Virus record (IMG/VR): IMGVR_UViG_3300044613_002815
Coordinates: 1 to 39,573 of that record
Direction: 5' to 3' (one strand)
Origin: a virus
Length of the DNA: 39,573 nt
The position numbers and the translations under genes were made by a program. Below the pieces are notes generated by a model. It did no database searches. It was not told the origin of the DNA and saw only the letters and a program-made list of their open reading frames with translations. Shown piece by piece: positions 24,850-39,573 of the stretch. The stretch's first letter is position 1. Every line of letters begins with the position of its first letter.

Positions 24850-25971
24850 ATGGCCGCCTACTACAAGGTCGAGGTTTCGCTAAACACCAACGCGGTGGAG
24901 GTCGGCGTGCCTTCGCCGCAGACGGTCAATGTGGTGGTGCCGACCATTGGGCCGCAGGGAGAAAAGGGCGACCAGGGTGACGTGGGGAATACTGGCCCGG
25001 CCAACTCGCTTGCCATCGGCACTGTCTCCACGGGCGCAGCGGGCAGCAACGCCTCGGCCACCATCACCGGAGCCGCGCCTTCGCAAACCCTCGATCTCAG
25101 CATCCCGCGCGGCGACAAAGGCGAAACGGGCGACACCGGAGCCAGTGGGCCAGCTAATTCTTTGGCCATCGGCACCGTCACCACTGGGGCCGAGGGCTCC
25201 AGCGCCGATGCCACCATTAGCGGCACCGCGCCTTCGCAAACTCTGAGCCTCGTCATTCCTGTCGGTGCCACCGGGGCCGTCGGAGCCACCGGTCCTCAAG
25301 GACCAGCAGGAACCGCCACGACCAGCGCCTCCGACCTCACCTCCGGCACCCTCGCCGACGCACGGCTGTCGGGAAATGTCGCGCTGGAGGACGTGGCCAA
25401 CACCTTCACGCAAAACCAAACGCTGAACGGCACGAACAATGTTGCCCCCAACCAGACGGCGGCGAGTGGGTCGTCGATTATGACGCGGGCGCTGGCGGAT
25501 GCGCGGTATGCCGAAGTCGTTAGCAGTAACGTTAATGCAAACCAAACAGCGGCTGATTTGTCGAATTTTTTTGGAACATCAAATGCGCCGGCGACCTTGC
25601 TCATCAACTATATACCATCCAAAGCAATAGTTTATGCCGTCATTCGATTCACGGCAACGCCAGTCGCAGCCACGACAACCAACTTCGATGCTAGGGTGTC
25701 TATAAGGGATGTCACAAACGCAAACCTTAACACAAACAACACGCAGCGGTGGATCTTGCCGTGCGTCAGCGTGATAAAAATTAGCGGGCTGGAAAACTAT
25801 TTGCTGCAATTTGAATCAACGTCCCCGCCAGCAGGGTGGACAACGCACTACAACACAAACGGTGGGTGGCTGCCCGTAACGTTTGGCGGTGAGATTATTA
25901 ACAAAACTGGCGGCAGCCTAACAACTGATAGCACTTCAGGAGGATGGAGCGCTGCTCACTTTTATCGCTAA
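24850..25971 (+). CDS. Collagen-like tail fibre protein
   Basis: 373 aa. Residues about 35-50, 83-97 and 138-154 carry Gly-X-Y collagen repeats (GPQGEKGDQGDVGNTGP, RGDKGETGDTGASGP, GATGAVGATGPQGP). Two copies of a 45-residue module (PANSLAIGTVSTGAAGS / PANSLAIGTVTTGAEGS) alternate with them. A trimerising fibre stalk is expected. The C-terminal ~170 residues (from TRALADARYAEVV) are a separate β-rich head with lower GC, likely the receptor-binding tip. Confidence 0.75.
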   Translation: MAAYYKVEVSLNTNAVEVGVPSPQTVNVVVPTIGPQGEKGDQGDVGNTGPANSLAIGTVSTGAAGSNASATITGAAPSQTLDLSIPRGDKGETGDTGASGPANSLAIGTVTTGAEGSSADATISGTAPSQTLSLVIPVGATGAVGATGPQGPAGTATTSASDLTSGTLADARLSGNVALEDVANTFTQNQTLNGTNNVAPNQTAASGSSIMTRALADARYAEVVSSNVNANQTAADLSNFFGTSNAPATLLINYIPSKAIVYAVIRFTATPVAATTTNFDARVSIRDVTNANLNTNNTQRWILPCVSVIKISGLENYLLQFESTSPPAGWTTHYNTNGGWLPVTFGGEIINKTGGSLTTDSTSGGWSAAHFYR

Positions 25972-26910: not shown

Positions 26911-27050
26911 TGCGGGCGATTGTCCTGGCACTGGCCGCTCTCGCCCTCACCGGCTGCGCGGGGATGAAGATTGGCATGGGCTACAACATGGAGGCCAAGC
27001 AATTCTTTTTGCAGTTGGAAAAGCCGCTTGAGCCGGGCTTCAAGAAGTGA
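26910..27050 (+). CDS. Small lipoprotein, o-spanin-like
   Basis: 46 aa from a GTG that overlaps the holin stop codon. MRAIVLALAALALTGC ends in the lipobox L-T-G-C, leaving a mature peptide of about 30 residues (AGMKIGMGYNMEAKQFF onward). Short outer-membrane lipoproteins between holin and endolysin are typical o-spanins (Rz1-like), though no inner-membrane partner is evident. Confidence 0.5.
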   Translation: MRAIVLALAALALTGCAGMKIGMGYNMEAKQFFLQLEKPLEPGFKK

Positions 27051-27058
27051 AGATGTAA

Positions 27059-27706
27059 GTGAAGATCATCCAATGGTTCCAAAAACTCTGGCTACGGCCA
27101 TCAAACGCTGGCCTACCGCCGACCTCGCAGAACTCCTTCTCCTCGTCAAAGTCCAACTCGACAAGCGTGCCGTCCACCACGCCGAAGGCGGGGGCGTCGA
27201 AGCCGAGGTCGCAGGCCGCGCCCGCAAAAGGCTTCCAAGAAACTAAGGTCCGCACGCCTAACGTCTCGGCCAAGGCGATCAAGCCCGAGGCCGTGGTGCT
27301 TCACCACAGCGGCGGGAGCTACGCGGGAGGCGTGTCGTGGATTCGCAACCCCAAGAGCCGCGTCAGCTACCACGTCCTCGTCGCCGAGGATGGCCGCCGC
27401 ACCGTCTTTGCCAACCCGACGCAACGCACTTGGCACGCAGGCAAGAGCGAGTGGCACGGGCGCAAAGATCTTAATTCGTGGAGCATCGGGGCGAGCTTTG
27501 CAGGCGACACGAACAAGGAACCTCTGACGCTCGATGCGATGGAGAGCATGGCCGAATATCTGGTGCCGATCATGCGGCAGTATGGGCTGGAGCTACCCGA
27601 CGTGACTGACCACCGCACCGTTGCCCCCGGTCGCAAAGATGATCTGGCGTGGCGGGAACTGGAGCGGTTTAAGGCTTATCTAAGCAAAGTGTTGGCCGCT
27701 TATTAA
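27059..27706 (+). CDS. N-acetylmuramoyl-L-alanine amidase (endolysin)
   Basis: 215 aa from a GTG. Residues 1-65 are basic and Ser/Pro-rich, then an Amidase_2 domain: VVLHHSGG (H82/H83, zinc ligand), SYHVLVAEDG near 103, TWHAGKS near 125, NSWSIGASFAGD at 139-150, and DHRTVAPGRKDD at 184-195 (second zinc ligand and the Lys-Asp pair of T7 lysozyme type). It cleaves the amide between MurNAc and L-alanine to lyse the cell. Confidence 0.9.
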   Translation: MKIIQWFQKLWLRPSNAGLPPTSQNSFSSSKSNSTSVPSTTPKAGASKPRSQAAPAKGFQETKVRTPNVSAKAIKPEAVVLHHSGGSYAGGVSWIRNPKSRVSYHVLVAEDGRRTVFANPTQRTWHAGKSEWHGRKDLNSWSIGASFAGDTNKEPLTLDAMESMAEYLVPIMRQYGLELPDVTDHRTVAPGRKDDLAWRELERFKAYLSKVLAAY

Positions 27707-27710
27707 AGAA

Positions 27711-27899
27711 ATGAGCCTGCGATTTGAACAACGCAACGCGCTATTAAAGGCACGCAATCTTTTGCGTGATTGCCTCGACCCGCAGAAGCGCCCCAAGACG
27801 GTCAAGCAACTGCGCGAGCGGGCGTATTCTGCCTTGCGGCATTTTCCGTTCCTCGATGAGCGGGGCGAGCCGCTTTGGTCGCAAGACGAATTTGAATGA
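27711..27899 (+). CDS. Hypothetical small protein after endolysin
   Basis: 62 aa, helical and basic (RFEQRNALLKARNLLRDC, KTVKQLRERAYSALRHF). ATG is 4 nt after the amidase stop region with a weak ribosome site. Unknown role; last gene of the late operon. Confidence 0.5.
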   Translation: MSLRFEQRNALLKARNLLRDCLDPQKRPKTVKQLRERAYSALRHFPFLDERGEPLWSQDEFE

Positions 27900-27966
27900 G
27901 CGCGTGGCGGAATCAGACGCAGGCCGACAAGGCTGTTGTATTGTAGGCGGAAACCCTACCGCGCTC
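27898..27966 (+). tRNA. tRNA-like element 1 (degenerate)
   Basis: A 69-nt element with GAGCGCG pairing CGCGCTC in a 7-bp closing helix, a perfect 5-bp stem with 7-nt loop (GTAGG / CCTAC) directly before the 3' strand, and a D-arm-like GTGGCGGAAT..AGACGC resembling tRNA-Leu/Ser. No convincing anticodon stem-loop or TTCRA T-loop. Decayed tRNA or a structure mimicking one. Confidence 0.35.
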
Positions 27967-28024
27967 GCCTTGACAATCAGCACCGTTTAAGACTTTTAAA
28001 GAGCACCGTATGGTGTGTCGAAAT
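27967..28024 (+). promoter_or_regulatory. TTGACA before tRNA-like element 2, possible promoter
   Basis: TTGACA near 27970 is followed, after about 17 nt, by an AT-rich CTTTTAAAG. A promoter for the tRNA-like transcripts is possible. No start codon follows at the 14-16 nt spacing, unlike the gene-start elements. Confidence 0.35.
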
Positions 28025-28091
28025 GGCGGGGGTCGTGCAGCGGACAGATAAACCGTGAAGCTCGTTTGTGGGTTCAATTCCCGACCTCGCC
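28025..28091 (+). tRNA. tRNA-like element 2 (degenerate)
   Basis: 67 nt. GGCGGGG (28025-28031) pairs with CCTCGCC (28085-28091) in 7 bp; the T-arm-like GTGGG-TTCAATT-CCCGA sits right before it and holds a canonical TTCAA loop. The middle lacks a clear 5-bp anticodon stem. It shares a core (AGATAAACCGTG, AGCTC, TTTGTGGG) with the following element. Confidence 0.4.
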
Positions 28092-28112
28092 CCTTTTCTT
28101 TGGCGGGGTTTT
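28085..28112 (+). terminator. Possible terminator between tRNA-like elements
   Basis: CCTCGCC (28085-28091) can also pair with GGCGGGG (28102-28108) across a 10-nt loop, followed by TTTT. This competes with the tRNA-like pairing of both elements. It would end the late transcript here. Confidence 0.5.
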
Positions 28113-28169
28113 AGCGGCGGAGAGATAAACCGTGCAGCTCTTTTGTGGGGCAAGTGCCCTGACCCCGCC
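28102..28169 (+). tRNA. tRNA-like element 3 (degenerate)
   Basis: 68 nt. GGCGGGG (28102-28108) pairs perfectly with CCCCGCC (28163-28169), then CCTTTTT follows. It shares the core of element 2. The T-arm region is changed to GGGC-AAGT-GCCC. It could be a tRNA remnant, or a large-loop terminator because of the trailing Ts. Confidence 0.35.
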
Positions 28170-28185
28170 CCTTTTTCTCTTAGTA

Positions 28186-28226
28186 TTAACCAACGTCACT
28201 TGACCGCGCAAAGTGACGATGGTTAA
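28186..28226. promoter_or_regulatory. 16-bp inverted repeat (operator, origin or terminator)
   Basis: TTAACCA-a-CGTCACTT pairs with AAGTGACG-a-TGGTTAA (28186-28201 and 28211-28226) around a 9-nt loop, with only the a/a mismatch. No T run follows. It lies in a gene-free stretch with other palindromes, so a protein-binding site or replication origin is likely. Confidence 0.6.
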
Positions 28227-28261
28227 CCAACGCCAACCCGCCGAGGGATTTGGCAATGCTC

Positions 28262-28353
28262 AACGTGTCGAAAGTTTGGCGTTTTGCATACACGTTACAA
28301 AAACGTGTCGATATTTATAACCCTCTCTTGCGATAACCTGTCACTTTGTGACA
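28262..28353. promoter_or_regulatory. Cluster of short palindromes and repeats
   Basis: ACACGTT-acaaa-AACGTGT (28290-28308), the direct repeat AACGTGTCGA (28262-28271 and 28302-28311) and TGTCAC-ttt-GTGACA (28339-28353) lie within 92 nt, with an AT-rich TATTTATAAC at 28312-28321. This looks like an operator or origin region; the CGTCACTT arm of the larger repeat upstream shares the GTCAC core. Confidence 0.5.
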
Positions 28354-28394
28354 CCTTTTTGCAACTTTCGTCAGAAAAGTGGGTGCTTTTTTAT

Positions 28395-28436
28395 CCCGTC
28401 GATTTCCACGGGATTAAACCCATCGAATGCGATGGG
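28395..28436 (-). terminator. Tandem hairpins at the end of the leftward operon
   Basis: CCCGT...ACGGG (28395-28399/28408-28412) and CCCATCG-aatg-CGATGGG (28419-28425/28430-28436) stand in tandem, each followed by ATTA on the + strand. They face the end of the leftward operon; on the - strand the second hairpin is followed by TTTAAT, a weak terminator. Confidence 0.45.
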
Positions 28437-28437
28437 A

Positions 28438-28584
28438 TTAGCGCCAAGCAAGCCAAAGGAAGCCCAAGTTAGCGGCAAAATATCCTGCAAAAATGCCACA
28501 CATGGGCCAATTTTTTTCATAGGCAAAGCCTGCGCTGGTGGCCGCGTAGCACAGCGTGCAGAGCAAGAGAGGCCAGAACGTCAT
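28438..28584 (-). CDS. Small membrane protein, end of leftward operon
   Basis: 48 aa, reading leftward from an ATG that overlaps the stop of the HExxH gene (ATGA). Two hydrophobic segments, FWPLLLCTLCYAATSAGFAY and CGIFAGYFAANLGFLWLAW, ending in Arg. Too short for most gene finders; coupling and composition support it. Function unknown; a membrane partner of the operon is possible. Confidence 0.5.
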   Translation of the reverse strand: MTFWPLLLCTLCYAATSAGFAYEKNWPMCGIFAGYFAANLGFLWLAWR

Positions 28585-28928
28585 TTGTCCCGCCTGTGCT
28601 GGCCGATGCTGATCTTCCCGTCACAAAACGTGTTGGCGAGCCATCGCGCAACCACGGACACCACCCGCTCGTGGTCGCGGATGTGCGTTTCGTCCACGCA
28701 GGGCATGGTGGCGTGGCCGACTTCGTGAGCGACGATGCCGAGAAGGTTGCCCGCGATGGCGTGCGGGTGGAAGTAGACCACCCGCTTTTTGAAATCCGTC
28801 ATGCCTTCGCACAACTCCTTAGACGGGGGCCGCTGCACCTTGACCGTCCACCATTCGCCATCGAGCTTGAACCGCAGCGTAGGGCGGCGTTTGCGAGGCT
28901 TTGCCGGGGCTGTGGCGGGCTTTGGCAT
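28581..28928 (-). CDS. Putative zinc metallopeptidase (HExxH)
   Basis: 115 aa. The motif VAHEVGHATMPCVDETH (H68, E69, H72) is a gluzincin-type zinc site; an acidic or His third ligand (D79-H82) follows. A basic N-terminal segment KPRKRR precedes it. Small phage proteins of this sort resemble SprT-like domains. Start is 1 nt before the end of the previous gene stop, so it is in the same operon as the HTH protein. Confidence 0.6.
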   Translation of the reverse strand: MPKPATAPAKPRKRRPTLRFKLDGEWWTVKVQRPPSKELCEGMTDFKKRVVYFHPHAIAGNLLGIVAHEVGHATMPCVDETHIRDHERVVSVVARWLANTFCDGKISIGQHRRDK

Positions 28929-28929
28929 C

Positions 28930-29271
28930 TTACTTGAGGCAATAGTGCGGAACGGGGCGCGTTAGCTGTTTGAGTCGCACGCGGAACATTCGGCACTCGC
29001 ACGCGCCCGAGTCCAAAAGGGCGCGGAGGCGTGGCTTGAGGGTGGCCTTTGGCAGCTTCAATTTTTCCGCGATGGCTTTAGCTGAATGCCAACCGGGAGG
29101 AACGACATCGACAGGGGCGGTGATCTGAGCAAGGGCGGCGCACCATTGGGCGAGGTCGGGGTCTGGCTGCAAAGGCTCCCGATCCGCCCGGCGTCCCGCG
29201 CGTGATGCCCGTCGATCCGGGTCGGAAAGTGCGCTTCGTGGAGAGGCGTCCCGGGAAAGTGTCGCCTTCAT
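28930..29271 (-). CDS. Winged-helix/HTH-like regulatory protein
   Basis: 113 aa from the ATG that overlaps the metallophosphatase stop (ATGA at 29268-29271). The N-terminal half is basic and disordered (RASRAGRRADREP). The C-terminal part HSAKAIAEKLKLPKATLKPR is a helix-turn-helix followed by a wing (SGACECRMFRVRLKQL). DNA-binding role inferred. Confidence 0.55.
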   Translation of the reverse strand: MKATLSRDASPRSALSDPDRRASRAGRRADREPLQPDPDLAQWCAALAQITAPVDVVPPGWHSAKAIAEKLKLPKATLKPRLRALLDSGACECRMFRVRLKQLTRPVPHYCLK

Positions 29272-30077: not shown

Positions 30078-30242
30078 GAAAGTAACCACTATTCCGAATC
30101 TATGTTATCACCCCACTTTCTCAATTTCCTGTGTCGGACGGCACTACTTTGCACCCTAAAACACTAAGAGTGTAGATTCGATCCCCTCCGCCGGCATCTT
30201 AATAATCAATGACTTACAGAATCTGAGCAAGGAAAGTAACCA
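30078..30242. repeat. Direct repeats flanking the attP candidate
   Basis: GAAAGTAACCA occurs at 30078-30088 and at 30232-30242 (the latter inside the end of the integrase gene), 154 bp apart on both sides of the putative core. Such repeats are typical arm-type binding sites of an integrase. Confidence 0.45.
30175..30196 (+). other. attP: Candidate attP core (tRNA 3' end)
   Basis: GATTCGATCCCCTCCGCCGG followed by CA has the layout of the 3' end of a tRNA gene: T-loop TTCGATC (30177-30183), T-stem CCCTC, acceptor 3' strand CGCCGGC and discriminator A196. The 5' side does not pair as a tRNA, as expected if only the recombining part matches the host gene. Tyrosine integrases often use such sites next to their gene, and this one is 9 nt from the integrase end. 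Exact core limits cannot be seen without attB. Confidence 0.55.
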
Positions 30243-31276
30243 GTTTTGAACCACTCGGTTGCGGCCTTCCTCTCTTGGAATTCCAAGTAATGCTTTCGGA
30301 CGATGGACTCGCTGTTGCCCATTTCTAGGGCGACTTGGGACGCCGACTTCACCGCCGCGCAGCGGTAGCTGCCAAAAGAATGTCGCAAGCCGTTTTTGAC
30401 GTAGACCGCGCCCTTTCTCCGCACGCGCTTTGCTAGGTTGTCGATGCGATCTTGGGGCGCAACCATATTGCCCGGCTGCGGCTCGCTCTTGCGTATCCAT
30501 GTGGCCAGAGCGGGAAGAATGGGCACAAGCCGGCGGCGTTTTGTTTTGCAAATCTCGGGACGCACCTCGATGTGCTTCCTGCCGAGCTTGATGTCCTCCC
30601 AGCGCAACCCTTGGATCTCTTCGGTCCGAAGGCCGGCAAGTCCGCCAATAGCCAGGGCGAGCCGCCATTCCATAGGCGCAGCGGCTAACAGGGCGCGGAA
30701 CTGTTTGGGCGCGTAAATGGCCACGGGCTTTGTGTCCAAGGTCTTTGAGTGTGTGCGCTCGGGCGCTGTCATGCCGTCAGGGATTAAGGCCGACTTGCGC
30801 GCCCAGGAGAAGAGGCTTACCAAGGCAGTGCGAATGTTGTTGTGCCGGCGCGGCCCGACAGGCAGAGGGTCAAGGTAGTCGCGGATCTGGTCAGCGGTTA
30901 CCTCGCTCATGCGGCAGGGGTGGGCTTTGGCGAACTTGGCGAGGTCGGCGGCGATAGTGCGCGTCTCCTGCACCTTGCGGTCTTTCAAGTGCGCCATGTA
31001 GCGGCCTACGGCCTCGGATACTTGGGGCGACTGAAGCCGGGTGGCCCGCCACTGCTCAAACTCGGAGAGCAACGCGGGGCTTACGTCGGCCAGCTCGGAC
31101 TTGCCGGCGCGCATGGCCTTTAGTTGGGCGCGGGCCTTGTCGCGGGCGCGGTCGAGGTCTTTGGCCGTGCAAAGAATACGCTTGCCGCCCTTGTGAGCGT
31201 GCCATTTCCACCGACCGTCCGAGCCTTGCCAAAGGTGCGCCGAAAATGATCCCACTTTGACCGACTCAGTTTTCAT
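30206..31276 (-). CDS. int: Tyrosine integrase
   Basis: 356 aa with a ribosome site AAGGA just before the ATG. N-terminal arm-binding domain (residues 1-75), core-binding helical domain (about 75-165) and catalytic domain: R217 in GLAGLRTEEI, box II KNGLRHSFGSYR with R298, and the nucleophile Y330 in VRKHYLE. The residue normally His before box II Arg is Asn295, a variation known among phage integrases. It recombines attP with a tRNA-type attB. Confidence 0.93.
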   Translation of the reverse strand: MKTESVKVGSFSAHLWQGSDGRWKWHAHKGGKRILCTAKDLDRARDKARAQLKAMRAGKSELADVSPALLSEFEQWRATRLQSPQVSEAVGRYMAHLKDRKVQETRTIAADLAKFAKAHPCRMSEVTADQIRDYLDPLPVGPRRHNNIRTALVSLFSWARKSALIPDGMTAPERTHSKTLDTKPVAIYAPKQFRALLAAAPMEWRLALAIGGLAGLRTEEIQGLRWEDIKLGRKHIEVRPEICKTKRRRLVPILPALATWIRKSEPQPGNMVAPQDRIDNLAKRVRRKGAVYVKNGLRHSFGSYRCAAVKSASQVALEMGNSESIVRKHYLEFQERKAATEWFKTGYFPCSDSVSH

Positions 31277-37237: not shown

Positions 37238-38311
37238 GTGAGCAATGGCGCAATGGCCGTCCGCAGACTTACCCCGCGAGAGTGCGAGCGTTTGCAGGGA
37301 TTTCCCGACGATCACACGCTCATCCCGTGGCGCGGCAAGTCGCCGCAGGACTGCCCGGATGGGCCGCGCTACAAGGCGCTGGGCAACAGCATGGCCGTTC
37401 CCTGCATGGCGTGGATCGGCAAGCGTATCGCCATGCAGCATCAAGGCCAAGTGCGCTACCTCTCCGTATGCAGCGGGATCGAAGCGGCCTCGGTCGCATG
37501 GGAACCGCTGGGCTGGGAGCCTGCGGCATTTGCCGAGGTGGAGAAGTTTCCGAGCGCGGTCTTGGCGCATCACTGGCCGCAAGTGCCGAACATGGGGGAT
37601 ATGACACGCCATGAATCTTGGAACTTGGGAGCAATCGACCTTCTGGTCGGAGGAACGCCTTGCCAATCCTTCAGTGTCGCCGGACTCCGCAAAGGACTCC
37701 ACGACCCGCGAGGTGGACTCATGCTTACATTTCTTGAGATCGCTCAACGTCAGCGGCCTCGATGGATTGTCTGGGAAAACGTCCCCGGCGTCCTGTCATC
37801 AGACGGAGGAAGGGATTTTGGTGCCTTCCTCGGGGCGTTGGGGGCATTGGGGTATGGGTTTGCCTACCGGGTGCTGGACGCACAGTGGTTCGGAGTGGCC
37901 CAGCGCCGTCGCCGTGTGTTCGTTGTCGGATGTCTTGGAGACGGGGCCGCTGCCGCAACGGTTCTATTTGAGTCAGAAAGCGTGTGCCGGAATCCTGCGC
38001 CGAGCAGAGAAGCGCGGGAAAGAACTGCCGCAACTCTTGTCCGAGGCTCTGCGCGTAGTGGCGGAATCGGATACGACAACCAAGCCATCTTCAGCCAGAA
38101 CGGAGACAATTTCGTGAGGCCGAGTGATTACCCAGAAGTAGTCGGCACCCTCTCAGACGGCGCGCACCAGGGGGGGGGCTTAACGGACAAGATGCCTACA
38201 CGGGCCGCATATTCGCCGTGCGTAGCCAACCCGCTGACGGCGCGGATGGGCAAGGGGATCAACACGACCTTGGACGAGGGGCAGACGCCGATTGTGGAGG
38301 CTAAACGATGA
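37238..38311 (+). CDS. Circularly permuted C5-cytosine DNA methyltransferase
   Basis: 357 aa. Motif order is IX-X first: RRLTPRECERLQGFPDDHT and RYKALGNSMAVPCMAWIG (residues 9-27 and 45-61), then motif I YLSVCSGIEAASVAWEPLG (near 73), IV VGGTPCQSFSVAG with catalytic Cys near 137, VI WENVPGVLSS, VIII QRRRRVFVVG, and a recognition region at the C-terminus. In usual enzymes IX and X close the protein. M.BssHII is a known permuted example. It transfers a methyl from SAM to cytosine C5. Start: GTG after the G10 tract; the C-terminus has a G9 tract. Likely role: protecting phage DNA from restriction. Confidence 0.85.
   Translation: MSNGAMAVRRLTPRECERLQGFPDDHTLIPWRGKSPQDCPDGPRYKALGNSMAVPCMAWIGKRIAMQHQGQVRYLSVCSGIEAASVAWEPLGWEPAAFAEVEKFPSAVLAHHWPQVPNMGDMTRHESWNLGAIDLLVGGTPCQSFSVAGLRKGLHDPRGGLMLTFLEIAQRQRPRWIVWENVPGVLSSDGGRDFGAFLGALGALGYGFAYRVLDAQWFGVAQRRRRVFVVGCLGDGAAAATVLFESESVCRNPAPSREARERTAATLVRGSARSGGIGYDNQAIFSQNGDNFVRPSDYPEVVGTLSDGAHQGGGLTDKMPTRAAYSPCVANPLTARMGKGINTTLDEGQTPIVEAKR
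37611..38117 (+). CDS. Second-frame protein inside the methyltransferase gene
   Basis: 168 aa in the +1 frame relative to the methyltransferase, starting at ATG 37611 (MNLGTWEQSTFWSEERLANP). Other recognisable parts: GKTSPASCHQTEEGILVPSS, WPSAVAVCSLSDVLETG and LPQRFYLSQKACAGILRRAE. I recall many small phage proteins with this sequence type beside Dcm-like genes, so the overlap looks evolutionarily maintained. The allele at 3-200 supports it (mostly synonymous change in this frame). Function unknown; overlap limits variation of both genes. Confidence 0.5.
   Translation: MNLGTWEQSTFWSEERLANPSVSPDSAKDSTTREVDSCLHFLRSLNVSGLDGLSGKTSPASCHQTEEGILVPSSGRWGHWGMGLPTGCWTHSGSEWPSAVAVCSLSDVLETGPLPQRFYLSQKACAGILRRAEKRGKELPQLLSEALRVVAESDTTTKPSSARTETIS
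37885..38011. repeat. 127-bp exact repeat (right copy)
   Basis: Identical to bases 1-127 and internal to the methyltransferase gene. Marks the point where allele A (start of the window) and allele B (this end) separate. Confidence 0.85.
38170..38178 (+). repeat. Poly-G tract (G9) in the recognition region, allele B
   Basis: Nine Gs within GAHQGGG; the frame continues to LTARMGKGINTTLDEGQ and stops in an ATGA overlap with the primase gene. The other allele has ten Gs (385-394). Confidence 0.75.
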
Positions 38312-39204
38312 CCGACAGCAAATTCCTCGCCTGGTGCCGGAACCCGAACAAGCGCAAGCGGCAGGCGTCCAGCTTGCACGGGCAGATTTATGCCTGGGCC
38401 TGTATGCTGCGCGATGACGGCATCGGCCATGCTCGGGCCTATCACATCATCCGGCGGATGGTGGATGCGGTGCGCGAGGACAATGGTGGACGGTTCACGC
38501 CTGACCGCGAGATCCTGTCGGCCATCCAATATGCCTACGAGGTGACGCCGAGCACGGGCACCGCCCGGGTGAGGCCGTGGCCGGTGCCGAATAAGACCCT
38601 GCAAGCGGAGTGCCGCCGGCTTTCCAAGCGGCGGGAGTGGTCGCTGGAGAAGTTGCGGGAGGCGTCGGCGCTGGATGCTGCGGAGATGGAGAAGACCGCG
38701 CCTGAGTGGTTCCTTGGCTCATTGCTGGGCGGCAGCGAGGTGCTTGCCTGCGTGGGGCTCGGTGTGGCGAAGTTCGAGACGGCGGCGATGTCGGCTTTTG
38801 CCGGGCAGTTGCGGATGTGGGAGTTCGTCGTGCCGAACGCGATGTCGGCCCTCGAGGGCAAGCGCAAGAGCGACGGCGAGCTTTCCGCGCACACCTTGGA
38901 CAACACGGGGCCGCGCCAGAACATCGTCGTGGAGTTTGATGACGGCGCCACGCCTGACGAGCAGGCGGCGCGGCATATCTGGCTCTCCGAGTTCCGCGAT
39001 CTGCGGATGGTGGTCTTCAGCGGCAGCAAGTCGCTGCATGGGTGGTATCGGGCGACCGATGAGGCCAGTGACCGGAAATTTATGGAGGAGGCCGTCCGCC
39101 TGGGCGGCGACCCGAAGACTTGGCTGAAGTCGCAGTTCGTGCGGATGCCGAACGGGCAGCGGGAGAACGGGACAATTCAACGAGTGGAGTTTTTTGACGC
39201 ATGA
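38308..39204 (+). CDS. Primase-polymerase-like replication protein, allele B
   Basis: 298 aa, the second version of 524-1414, starting in an ATGA overlap. Same motifs: NIVVEFDDG, SGSKSLHGWY, QRVEFFDA. N-terminal 120 and C-terminal 130 residues agree closely; residues about 125-165 differ (for example EWFLGSLLGGSEVLACVG here). The C-terminal half keeps even synonymous similarity, suggesting recent exchange there. On a single circular genome only one of the two versions would be present. Confidence 0.6.
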   Translation: MTDSKFLAWCRNPNKRKRQASSLHGQIYAWACMLRDDGIGHARAYHIIRRMVDAVREDNGGRFTPDREILSAIQYAYEVTPSTGTARVRPWPVPNKTLQAECRRLSKRREWSLEKLREASALDAAEMEKTAPEWFLGSLLGGSEVLACVGLGVAKFETAAMSAFAGQLRMWEFVVPNAMSALEGKRKSDGELSAHTLDNTGPRQNIVVEFDDGATPDEQAARHIWLSEFRDLRMVVFSGSKSLHGWYRATDEASDRKFMEEAVRLGGDPKTWLKSQFVRMPNGQRENGTIQRVEFFDA

Positions 39205-39573
39205 GAAATGTTCACAAAGCACAACCGGCGGGCTTTCAAGCCTTCAAGGAAACCGAACACATGGACGCGGCGGGCGAGCCGGCCAACGTCCACAAGCTCG
39301 AGGTGGCCGATGACGCGCCTGATTCGGATGCGTTGCCGCCTTGGCTAAAGGGCAACGAGCTTTTCGCGCTGAAGGCGCAGACCCCGGGGCTGCTCATTTG
39401 TGGGCCGGATGGCGGCGAGGAGGGGGCCATTCTGCGGCAACGGCGCAAGCTGGTGATCGGCGGTTCGTCCAAGATGGGCAAGACGTGGACGCTGCTCGAT
39501 CTGGCGCTGGCCGTGGCCTCGGGGGGCTATTGGCTGGGCAAGTTCAAGTGCGAACAGGGGGCGGTGCTCTATG
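39201..39573 (+). CDS. RepA-like AAA ATPase, allele B (partial, runs off the end)
   Basis: First 124 residues: MRNVHKAQPAG, LPPWLKGNELFALKAQTPG, then the P-loop GGSSKMGKTWTLLDLALAVA. Corresponds to residues 1-~125 of the 1407-2618 protein, with a divergent segment after residue 12. Cut by the window end. Confidence 0.75.
   Translation, partial: MRNVHKAQPAGFQAFKETEHMDAAGEPANVHKLEVADDAPDSDALPPWLKGNELFALKAQTPGLLICGPDGGEEGAILRQRRKLVIGGSSKMGKTWTLLDLALAVASGGYWLGKFKCEQGAVLY

Follow-up and report, generated by a model that had tools for sequence, protein, structure and literature searches.

Conserved tRNA-like RNA structures without a decoding arm, and related folds, between the convergent operons of a probable temperate phage and its relatives

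Genes and elements of the locus

The window, i.e. the whole stretch of 39,573 nucleotides that was analyzed, is a 39.6-kb virus record carrying terminase, portal, tail, amidase endolysin and integrase genes. This gene content suggests that it is probably a temperate tailed phage. An array of three structured elements lies 3′ of the amidase gene and of an ORF encoding 62 aa, ahead of minus-strand genes that include a HExxH ORF and the integrase gene. The elements of the window and its relatives are assigned below to classes A to D. The features of the locus are the following (+ and −, strands):

27059..27706, +: N-acetylmuramoyl-L-alanine amidase (endolysin), upstream neighbor of the array
27711..27899, +: 62-aa ORF, whose stop codon extends into the 5′ end of element 1
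27898..27969, +: element 1 (class A), predicted non-decoding tRNA-Leu-like RNA
27898-27904/27960-27966, +: element 1, acceptor (7 bp)
27907-27909/27918-27920, +: element 1, D stem
27922-27925/27931-27934, +: element 1, mini-arm with loop GACAA
27943-27959, +: element 1, T arm (GTAGG-CGGAAAC-CCTAC)
27967-27969, +: element 1, tail GCC directly after the acceptor
28000..28015, +: GAGCACCGTATGGTGT, possible remnant of a class C element, identical to the class C mini-arm stretch of relatives
28025..28093, +: element 2 (class B)
28025-28031/28085-28091, +: element 2, closing helix (7 bp, one G-T pair)
28041-28055, +: element 2, core hairpin CGG-ACAGATAAA-CCG, inside the helix GTGC/GCTC (28035-28038/28060-28063)
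28069-28083, +: element 2, 3′ hairpin (GGG-TTCAATT-CCC, with an additional T-G pair)
28085..28112, +: alternative hairpin between elements 2 and 3, a possible intrinsic terminator
28102..28171, +: element 3 (class B), tandem duplicate of element 2
28102-28108/28163-28169, +: element 3, closing helix (7 bp)
28118-28132, +: element 3, core hairpin CGG-AGAGATAAA-CCG
28146-28161, +: element 3, 3′ hairpin (GGGC-AAGT-GCCC, two extra G-T pairs)
28581..28928, −: HExxH (metalloprotease-like) ORF of the convergent operon, conserved, used as anchor for finding relatives
30165..30200, +: attachment-site-like tRNA-Leu 3′ end, next to the integrase gene
30206-31276, −: integrase gene

Neither the 62-aa ORF nor the HExxH ORF has a match in Pfam or PHROGs; the latter, which is well conserved and was aligned across 37 records, perhaps represents an unnamed metalloprotease family. 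Searches of genome contigs with the HExxH-ORF alignment and with the terminase found no relative, and neither tblastn with the HExxH ORF nor blastn with positions 27059-28500 gave any match among named phages. The best named match of the terminase among the 580 records listed is an Akkermansia phage (32% identity), a weak hint at a host belonging to the Verrucomicrobiota. Self-comparison of the window showed a likeness of positions 1-147 to 37885-38031 (95% identity over 147 nt) and of 351-1779 to 38136-39573 (78% identity over 1,455 nt), which is a diverged duplication rather than a simple end repeat. A direct repeat of 99 nt (24993-25091 and 25146-25244, 76% identical) lies within a tail-fibre-like ORF (24850-25971).

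The original prediction, made from the sequence of the window, described three tandem folds each closed by a helix of 7 bp. All three helices are present, and elements 2 and 3 share a core as predicted (73% identity over 74 nt, with a spacing of 77). The proposed competing pairing also exists: CCTCGCC (28085-28091) can pair with GGCGGGG (28102-28108) around a loop of 10, and TTTT follows (28109-28112). Likewise, the reported lack of normal anticodon arms agrees with all searches. ARAGORN, which also seeks tmRNA, made no call at any class A-D element of the window and its relatives, including 13 added loci; Rfam gave no match at gathering scores in the window or in six loci, and its tRNA model gave none on the window at an E-value of 0.001. 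Among weaker Rfam matches on the elements of the window, the best is that of the tRNA-Sec model to element 2, with 16.8 bits for a cut-off of 47.

On single sequence the three folds are unremarkable (folding z-scores of −1.41, +0.44 and −0.80 for elements 1, 2 and 3, each folded alone), and it is the relatives that decide. The lowest-energy fold of element 1 consists of the four arms, that of element 2 differs from the fold described here, and the fold of a 150-nt stretch includes the hairpin between elements 2 and 3. A crude scan for an acceptor plus a T arm found two matches in the 380-nt region, compared to a mean of 0.42 in 200 shuffles, none of which reached the best score. The same scan gave 1,988 matches in 348 kb (both strands of 38 sources, some overlapping); it was thus too permissive and was dropped as evidence. 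A coding explanation was also considered, since short frames starting with ATG overlap element 1 (by eye) and class B frames are open in records L225 and L226. In relatives, however, these frames are interrupted by stops and indels (by eye) while the helices covary, and this explanation was rejected.

Classes A to D in related records

Relatives were sought through a pattern of the element 2/3 core, the amidase, the HExxH ORF and the 62-aa ORF, and more were obtained through DNA patterns. According to the original prediction, relatives should show conserved pairing at this place rather than unrelated sequence. Pairing is conserved in classes A and B, and at least one element of classes A-D was found near the junction between the lysis genes and the convergent genes in 14 of the 37 HExxH-ORF records, while the other 23 carry no element of any class. 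Absence was scored by eye in the 800-1000 nt past the HExxH ORF, with patterns and with the class A-C models; in three of these 23 records (L197, L198 and L200), other genes adjoin the HExxH ORF; records may also be fragments. The presence of so many related records without any element indicates that it is dispensable. The search for the repeats in relatives, which had been proposed with the prediction, retrieved the same three elements in L001, class A elements in 12 records and class B elements in six, the window being counted in both. Furthermore, L207 and L224 have broken copies of class C elements whose 3′ or 5′ half is gone (L207 has nothing else, L224 also a class D element), which shows gain and loss at this site.

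In L004, L162, L167, L170, L171 and others, L172, L206, L209 and L210 among them, the same place holds a short ORF whose ribosome site is strong (GAAAGGAGG..ATGCACCGA..); in L167 it is additional to an element, elsewhere it replaces one. This ORF is perhaps another cargo of the hot spot. The L201 record carries elsewhere (G015:24270-24342) a true tRNA-Met (CAT) gene, showing that these phages can carry ordinary tRNAs too. In the titles and abstract openings of the literature on tRNA-like or pseudo-tRNA phage elements, including those devoid of a decoding arm, acting as decoys or cut by RNase P, mostly outside subscription journals, class A-D elements are not described.

Class A includes element 1 and its kin in 12 records: the window, L001, L098, L111, L178, L179, L180, L220, L231, L235, L237 and L238. 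Four of them (L231, L235, L237 and L238) were obtained with a pattern fixing both acceptor strands, and the invariance of the acceptor in this class is therefore partly built in. Six others were found without acceptor constraint, either by protein searches (L178, L179, L180 and L220) or by a D-arm pattern, of whose at least 118 new loci only L098 and L111 were kept. Three other candidates from the acceptor-fixing pattern were excluded from the class A counts: L233, called tRNA-Ser by ARAGORN, L234, which has a longer tRNA-like form, and L232, which is devoid of such a shape. The alignment contains 11 sequences, as L237 and L238 are identical (one was used) and repeat loci of one record were dropped; L178 and L179, which share their body, were both counted.

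All class A elements follow the same plan: an acceptor, a D arm, a mini-arm that stands at the place of the anticodon arm and has no more than 4 bp and a loop NAYAA, and a T arm. GAGCGCGTGGCGGAA..AGACGC and CCGCGCTC are common to all records, whereas the T stem exists in three variants (GTAGG/CCTAC, GCAGG/CCTGC and GAAGG/CCTTC) and the inner pairs of the mini-arm are C-G or G-C. The top half made of the acceptor and of a T arm with a T-loop is thus present, element 1 included, with altered loops, and an anticodon loop of 7 nt with U33 on a 5-bp stem is absent from element 1 and from its 10 aligned relatives. Model R2, built from six relatives with the window held out, finds element 1 at 57.5 bits (E-value of 5.4e-11). 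In the 11 sequences, 95.7% of cells are paired (79.5% in the mini-arm) and the covariation score is 0.161 compared to 0.052 in shuffled alignments, none of 500 being as high. The changes affect the T stem (CG/UA/AU) and the mini-arm (CG/GC); the acceptor and D stems never vary and hence receive no support from covariation. Two of the five measures fail, since neither the number of double-change pairs (4 versus 3.0, reached by 115 of 500 shuffles) nor that of further pair types (151 of 500) is above shuffles.

The D-arm motif points to the kinship of these elements: it lies inside a tRNA called by ARAGORN at 97 of 121 sites, 93 of these being tRNA-Leu (among the matches listed). The Rfam tRNA model comes close to its cut-off of 29 bits for L098 (27.6) and L179 (26.7), with E-values of about 2e-5 per record, and has no match on the element at an E-value of 1 for the other eight of the ten class A records given to it. 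Compared to tRNA-Leu (Rfam RF00005), class A has the same 7-bp acceptor, D arm (GTGGCGGAA..AGACGC) and 5-bp T stem, a T-loop end that is often GAAY, and G-C-C after the acceptor in 7 of 11 sequences. It differs by a T loop of 7-8 nt and by the lack of the anticodon loop, U33, G18G19 of the D-loop and the long variable arm. By these features, element 1 is a predicted non-decoding relative of tRNA-Leu whose anticodon arm has been cut to a stub. Observed separately, L234:7099-7185 carries a tRNA-Leu-like form of 84 nt in which a hairpin in the variable arm can be seen by eye. ARAGORN does not call this form, which scores 43.6 bits with the class A model and may link class A to real tRNAs.

Class B gathers eight sequences from six records: two each from the window and L001, the only records in which they are in tandem, and one each from L214 (= L173), L111, L225 and L226. 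Elements 2 and 3 thus are a 77-nt tandem duplication of a class B RNA. The core CGG-ANAGAYAAA-CCG-TGNN-GCTC is invariant but doubled as the search pattern (L173 was found through a protein neighbor). Since this core never varies, its helix has no support from covariation, and in five of the eight sequences the GNGC/GCTC helix lacks its second pair. The evidence comes from the other stems. The closing helix varies (GGC/GCC, GCC/GGC, GAC/GTC and GAT/ATC), as does the 3′ hairpin (TGGG..CCCG, GGGG..CCCC, GGGC..GCCC, CCGG..CCGG and CCGGG..CCCGG, with loops of 3-7 nt). Overall, 94.7% of cells are paired and the covariation score is 0.241 compared to 0.120 in shuffled alignments (0 of 500 as high), with changes GC/AU/CG and CG/UA in the closing helix. 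Double-change pairs number 4 compared to 1.8 (14 of 500 shuffles), whereas further pair types do not exceed the shuffled level (90 of 500). The two held-out members, L214 and L111, are recovered by model R1 at 70.7 and 67 bits, respectively. The covariance models that had been suggested as a check therefore recognize held-out members of both classes. No Rfam model matches at its cut-off, on class B or elsewhere in the elements. The pairing between elements 2 and 3 is not independently supported, because it follows from the tandem duplication and is invariant in the window and L001, in both of which its hairpin is followed by a T run.

The hairpins preceding the 3′ strands had been described as T-arm-like. 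Their position was correctly seen, as they abut the strand or stand one base off, but their likeness to a T arm does not extend to class B as a whole: a T-like loop is found in element 2 only, and the seven other sequences, including element 3 with its 4-nt loop, lack it. As the stem covaries while the loop is free, the class B 3′ hairpin is in general not a T arm. The proposal that the elements are tRNA mimics accordingly holds for element 1, with its tRNA-Leu D-arm motif, T arm, mini-arm and compensatory changes, but only for the outer geometry of elements 2 and 3, whose conserved core hairpin is different. Elements 2 and 3 are a second RNA that has a tRNA-like outer geometry (a 7-bp helix and a hairpin of 3-5 bp) and a core of its own.

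In L225 and L226, the class B element is located shortly ahead of a likely start codon and not at an operon end. A second hairpin shared by these two records (GCCGGCAG/CTGCC..GCCGG; L225:400-465 and L226:200-264) precedes it and follows TGCTATAAT, which is like an extended −10 sequence; hairpin and class B element perhaps form a two-domain leader RNA. L228 and L229, probably proviruses of isolate genomes, score 26.0 and 35.1 bits with the class B model, but their core is inside another stem, and this likeness may reflect chance or kinship. There, several hundred nt without evident gene (L228:2100-2650 and L229:4480-4900, minus strand) end in a terminator-like hairpin; in L228, the loop of a hairpin (TCTCGACCTC) shows complementarity to sequence around the start of the following gene (AGGTCGAGA), which resembles the arrangement of an antisense regulator (by eye).

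The two other classes were found only in relatives:

Class C (L003, L163, L167, L168, L199 and L202): same place as the elements of the window
Class D (L003, L161, L163 and L224): opposite strand, behind the convergent genes

Class C elements have a closing helix of 8 bp, a mini-arm CACC-GTAT-GGTG and a T stem of 4 bp (CGGG/CCCG or CGAG/CTCG) whose loops include TTCGACC and TTCAATG. The middle part is different in the variants L205/L208 and L211, the last of which is followed by ACCA. A single pair is changed on both sides, which is not above shuffles. Class D elements, which were found by pattern and for which there is no model, have a D arm with GG in the loop, a mini-arm (CCG-GACAA-CGG or CCA-GACAG-TGG), a long variable arm (GTCACA/TGTGAC or GTTACA/TGTAAC) and a T arm, followed by ACCA in L224. 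Two of their pairs are changed on both sides, a marginal result since 25 of 500 shuffles reach it. At E-values up to 1, the class B model has ten further matches: seven on class C (L205/L208 at 6e-4, L168/L201 at 0.01, and also L199, L211 and L202), two on the cores of L228 and L229 and one, unexplained, in L226. The other matches of the class C model are element 2 (E-value of 0.057) and class D (0.11-0.35). This weak cross-reaction of the models suggests one superfamily of shape, if not of descent.

Junction features and possible processing by RNase P

This site holds conserved structured RNAs; very probably, the elements are RNA structures that have been conserved, rather than relics. Their retention through matched mutations in some relatives suggests that they are working RNAs, whose job would seem to be other than translation.

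The junction with the closing helix, which was used to set the ends of the elements, was compared in 30 of them (11 of class A, eight of class B, seven of class C and four of class D). All 30, including the three of the window, have T at −1 and G at +1, and all 30 have A or T at −2; elements within one class are not independent and no probability is therefore attached to these counts. The base level of T at −2 to −30 of the elements is 28%. For comparison, the 596 distinct tRNAs called by ARAGORN in the retrieved phages include 312 with T at −1 and 473 with A or T at −2; among 1,609 chance folds, T occupies −1 in 23% and G occupies +1 in 39%. According to passages of PMC10731613, the optimal consensus of bacterial RNase P combines a 12-nucleotide stem, a T loop, a 3′ RCCA and U(-1)/G(1), and phage mRNAs and small RNAs are cut by this enzyme; hairpins made of the acceptor stem, T stem and T loop alone are described as sufficient for cutting (PMC11143913). 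Class A fits most of this consensus, and class B only the stem lengths and the junction. Against a mimicry of tRNA precursors stands the fact that RCC, which pairs with the RNA of RNase P, directly follows the helix in only nine of the 30 elements (A, 7/11; B, 0/8; C, 1/7; D, 1/4), element 1 having GCC and elements 2 and 3 none. CCA directly follows it in six more (four of class C and two of class B). Other points against such a mimicry are the 3′ hairpin of class B, devoid of a T loop in seven of eight sequences, the position of class B ahead of a likely start codon in L225 and L226, and the 23 of 37 records in which no element is present.

Taken as a whole, these features favor processing at transcript ends: we consider it possible, without regarding it as probable, that the elements are pre-tRNA mimics cut by host RNase P at the ends of transcripts. 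The transcript of the late (lysis) operon would carry the elements at its 3′ end, host RNase P would recognize their tRNA-like top half and would cut at the U(-1)/G(+1) junction, and the cut would both give the late mRNA a defined 3′ end and free a compact RNA. In L003 and L163, the convergent genes are also followed, on the opposite strand, by a class D element. It is conceivable, if doubtful, that a group of temperate phages uses interchangeable non-decoding mimics, of at least four classes, as RNase P processing modules at the ends of convergent operons, and that the freed RNAs may serve as decoys. The usual view of phage tRNAs is that they help decoding or insure against defenses that cut tRNAs. 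If a conserved set lacks the anticodon arm, selection would be acting on the tRNA body alone, and such a set would be a clean test of what phages gain from the tRNA shape, be it transcript ends, stability or the occupation of a host or defense enzyme. It should also be emphasized that these elements escape ARAGORN and the Rfam cut-offs, and that others may therefore be hidden in phage genomes.

The tRNA-like domain of tmRNA and the tRNA-like structures of plant viruses also consist of an acceptor and T-arm domain without a decoding arm. Pre-tmRNA has the same U(-1)/G(1) (passages of PMC10731613), and the plant-virus tRNA-like ends are described as RNase P substrates (PMC11143913). The present elements differ by the absence of any ARAGORN or Rfam match and by their location between operons of DNA phages. 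The tRNA-Other of Bacillus cereus, as described in passages of PMC3399842, is likewise a tRNA-shaped pseudo-tRNA that is non-functional in translation, and it has been proposed to be the tRNA-like part of a larger RNA; it keeps, however, a Trp anticodon and flanks a bacterial island, whereas our elements are phage-borne, have an anticodon arm reduced to a stub and belong to several classes that exchange at one site. Other non-tRNA substrates of RNase P of phage origin are the C4 antisense RNA of P1/P7 and the M3 RNA, according to passages of PMC11143913; in contrast, our elements have no Rfam match at gathering scores and their cutting is inferred.

Alternative functions and origins

The main rival to processing at transcript ends is a function in trans, in which stable tRNA-shaped RNAs, either excised or accumulating, would act as decoys that bind a tRNA-handling host or defense protein while offering no anticodon to cut. 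We regard it as rather unlikely. The patchy presence of the elements (14 of 37) and the exchange of classes at one site are those of accessory cargo, the anticodon arm is reduced differently in classes A, C and D, and the class B elements of L225 and L226 follow an extended −10-like sequence; however, a consensus scan of 27000-29000 in the window found no promoter-like site.

It is unlikely that the elements are transcription terminators whose helices and T runs stop the convergent operons, with the pairing between elements 2 and 3 as the main hairpin in the window. The array does lie between convergent operons, the hairpin between elements 2 and 3 belongs to the 150-nt fold, and at least four T follow elements 2 and 3, both class B elements of L001, those of L111 and L226 and the class A elements of L001, L180 and L111. 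However, there is no T run after 21 of the 30 elements, including element 1 and all those of classes C and D. A terminator scan lists none at 27898-28170, but it covers loops of 3-8 only, so that the hairpin between elements 2 and 3 (loop of 10) is invisible to it. Moreover, the closing strand of a multi-branched fold makes a poor terminator stem. The late-operon terminator made of repeats, one of the possibilities initially put forward, thus does not account for a shared function, TTTT being found within ten bases of the helix in nine of 30 elements only and repeat-to-repeat pairing only in the window and L001.

The decayed tRNA array that had also been envisaged, i.e. tRNA genes on their way out, is very unlikely despite the tRNA-Leu motif of class A and the broken class C copies of L207 and L224. 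Stems of classes A, B and D show compensatory changes on both sides, the same shortened arm has been kept by the 12 records of class A, and every one of the 30 elements has U(-1)/G(+1); relatives thus keep non-decoding folds by paired changes, and ARAGORN calls no tRNA at class A. That the elements are recombination or attachment sites carrying tRNA 3′ ends is highly improbable: although there is an integrase gene and these genomes do contain 3′ halves of tRNAs, the attachment-like tRNA-Leu 3′ end of the window adjoins the integrase gene, 2 kb off, similar tRNA-Leu or tRNA-Ser ends are found in 11 relatives, several of which also have an element, and the elements hold both acceptor strands.

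An RNA anti-CRISPR appears extremely improbable, since the nine-base likeness of the class B stretch GATAAACCG to what we take to be the end of type I-E CRISPR repeats comes without the hairpin of the repeat itself, and the CCG is paired inside the class B core, unlike in the handle of the crRNA. In crRNA this handle is single-stranded. Solitary repeats in phages do act as RNA anti-CRISPRs, type I-E candidates included, according to passages of PMC10651486.

Among the 24 sources checked for such tRNA ends, L001 and L238 have a tRNA-Leu end like that of the window, while nine others have a tRNA-Ser 3′ half (for example L004:6430-6515, anticodon CGA by eye). These ends suggest that a change of integration target has taken place within the group.
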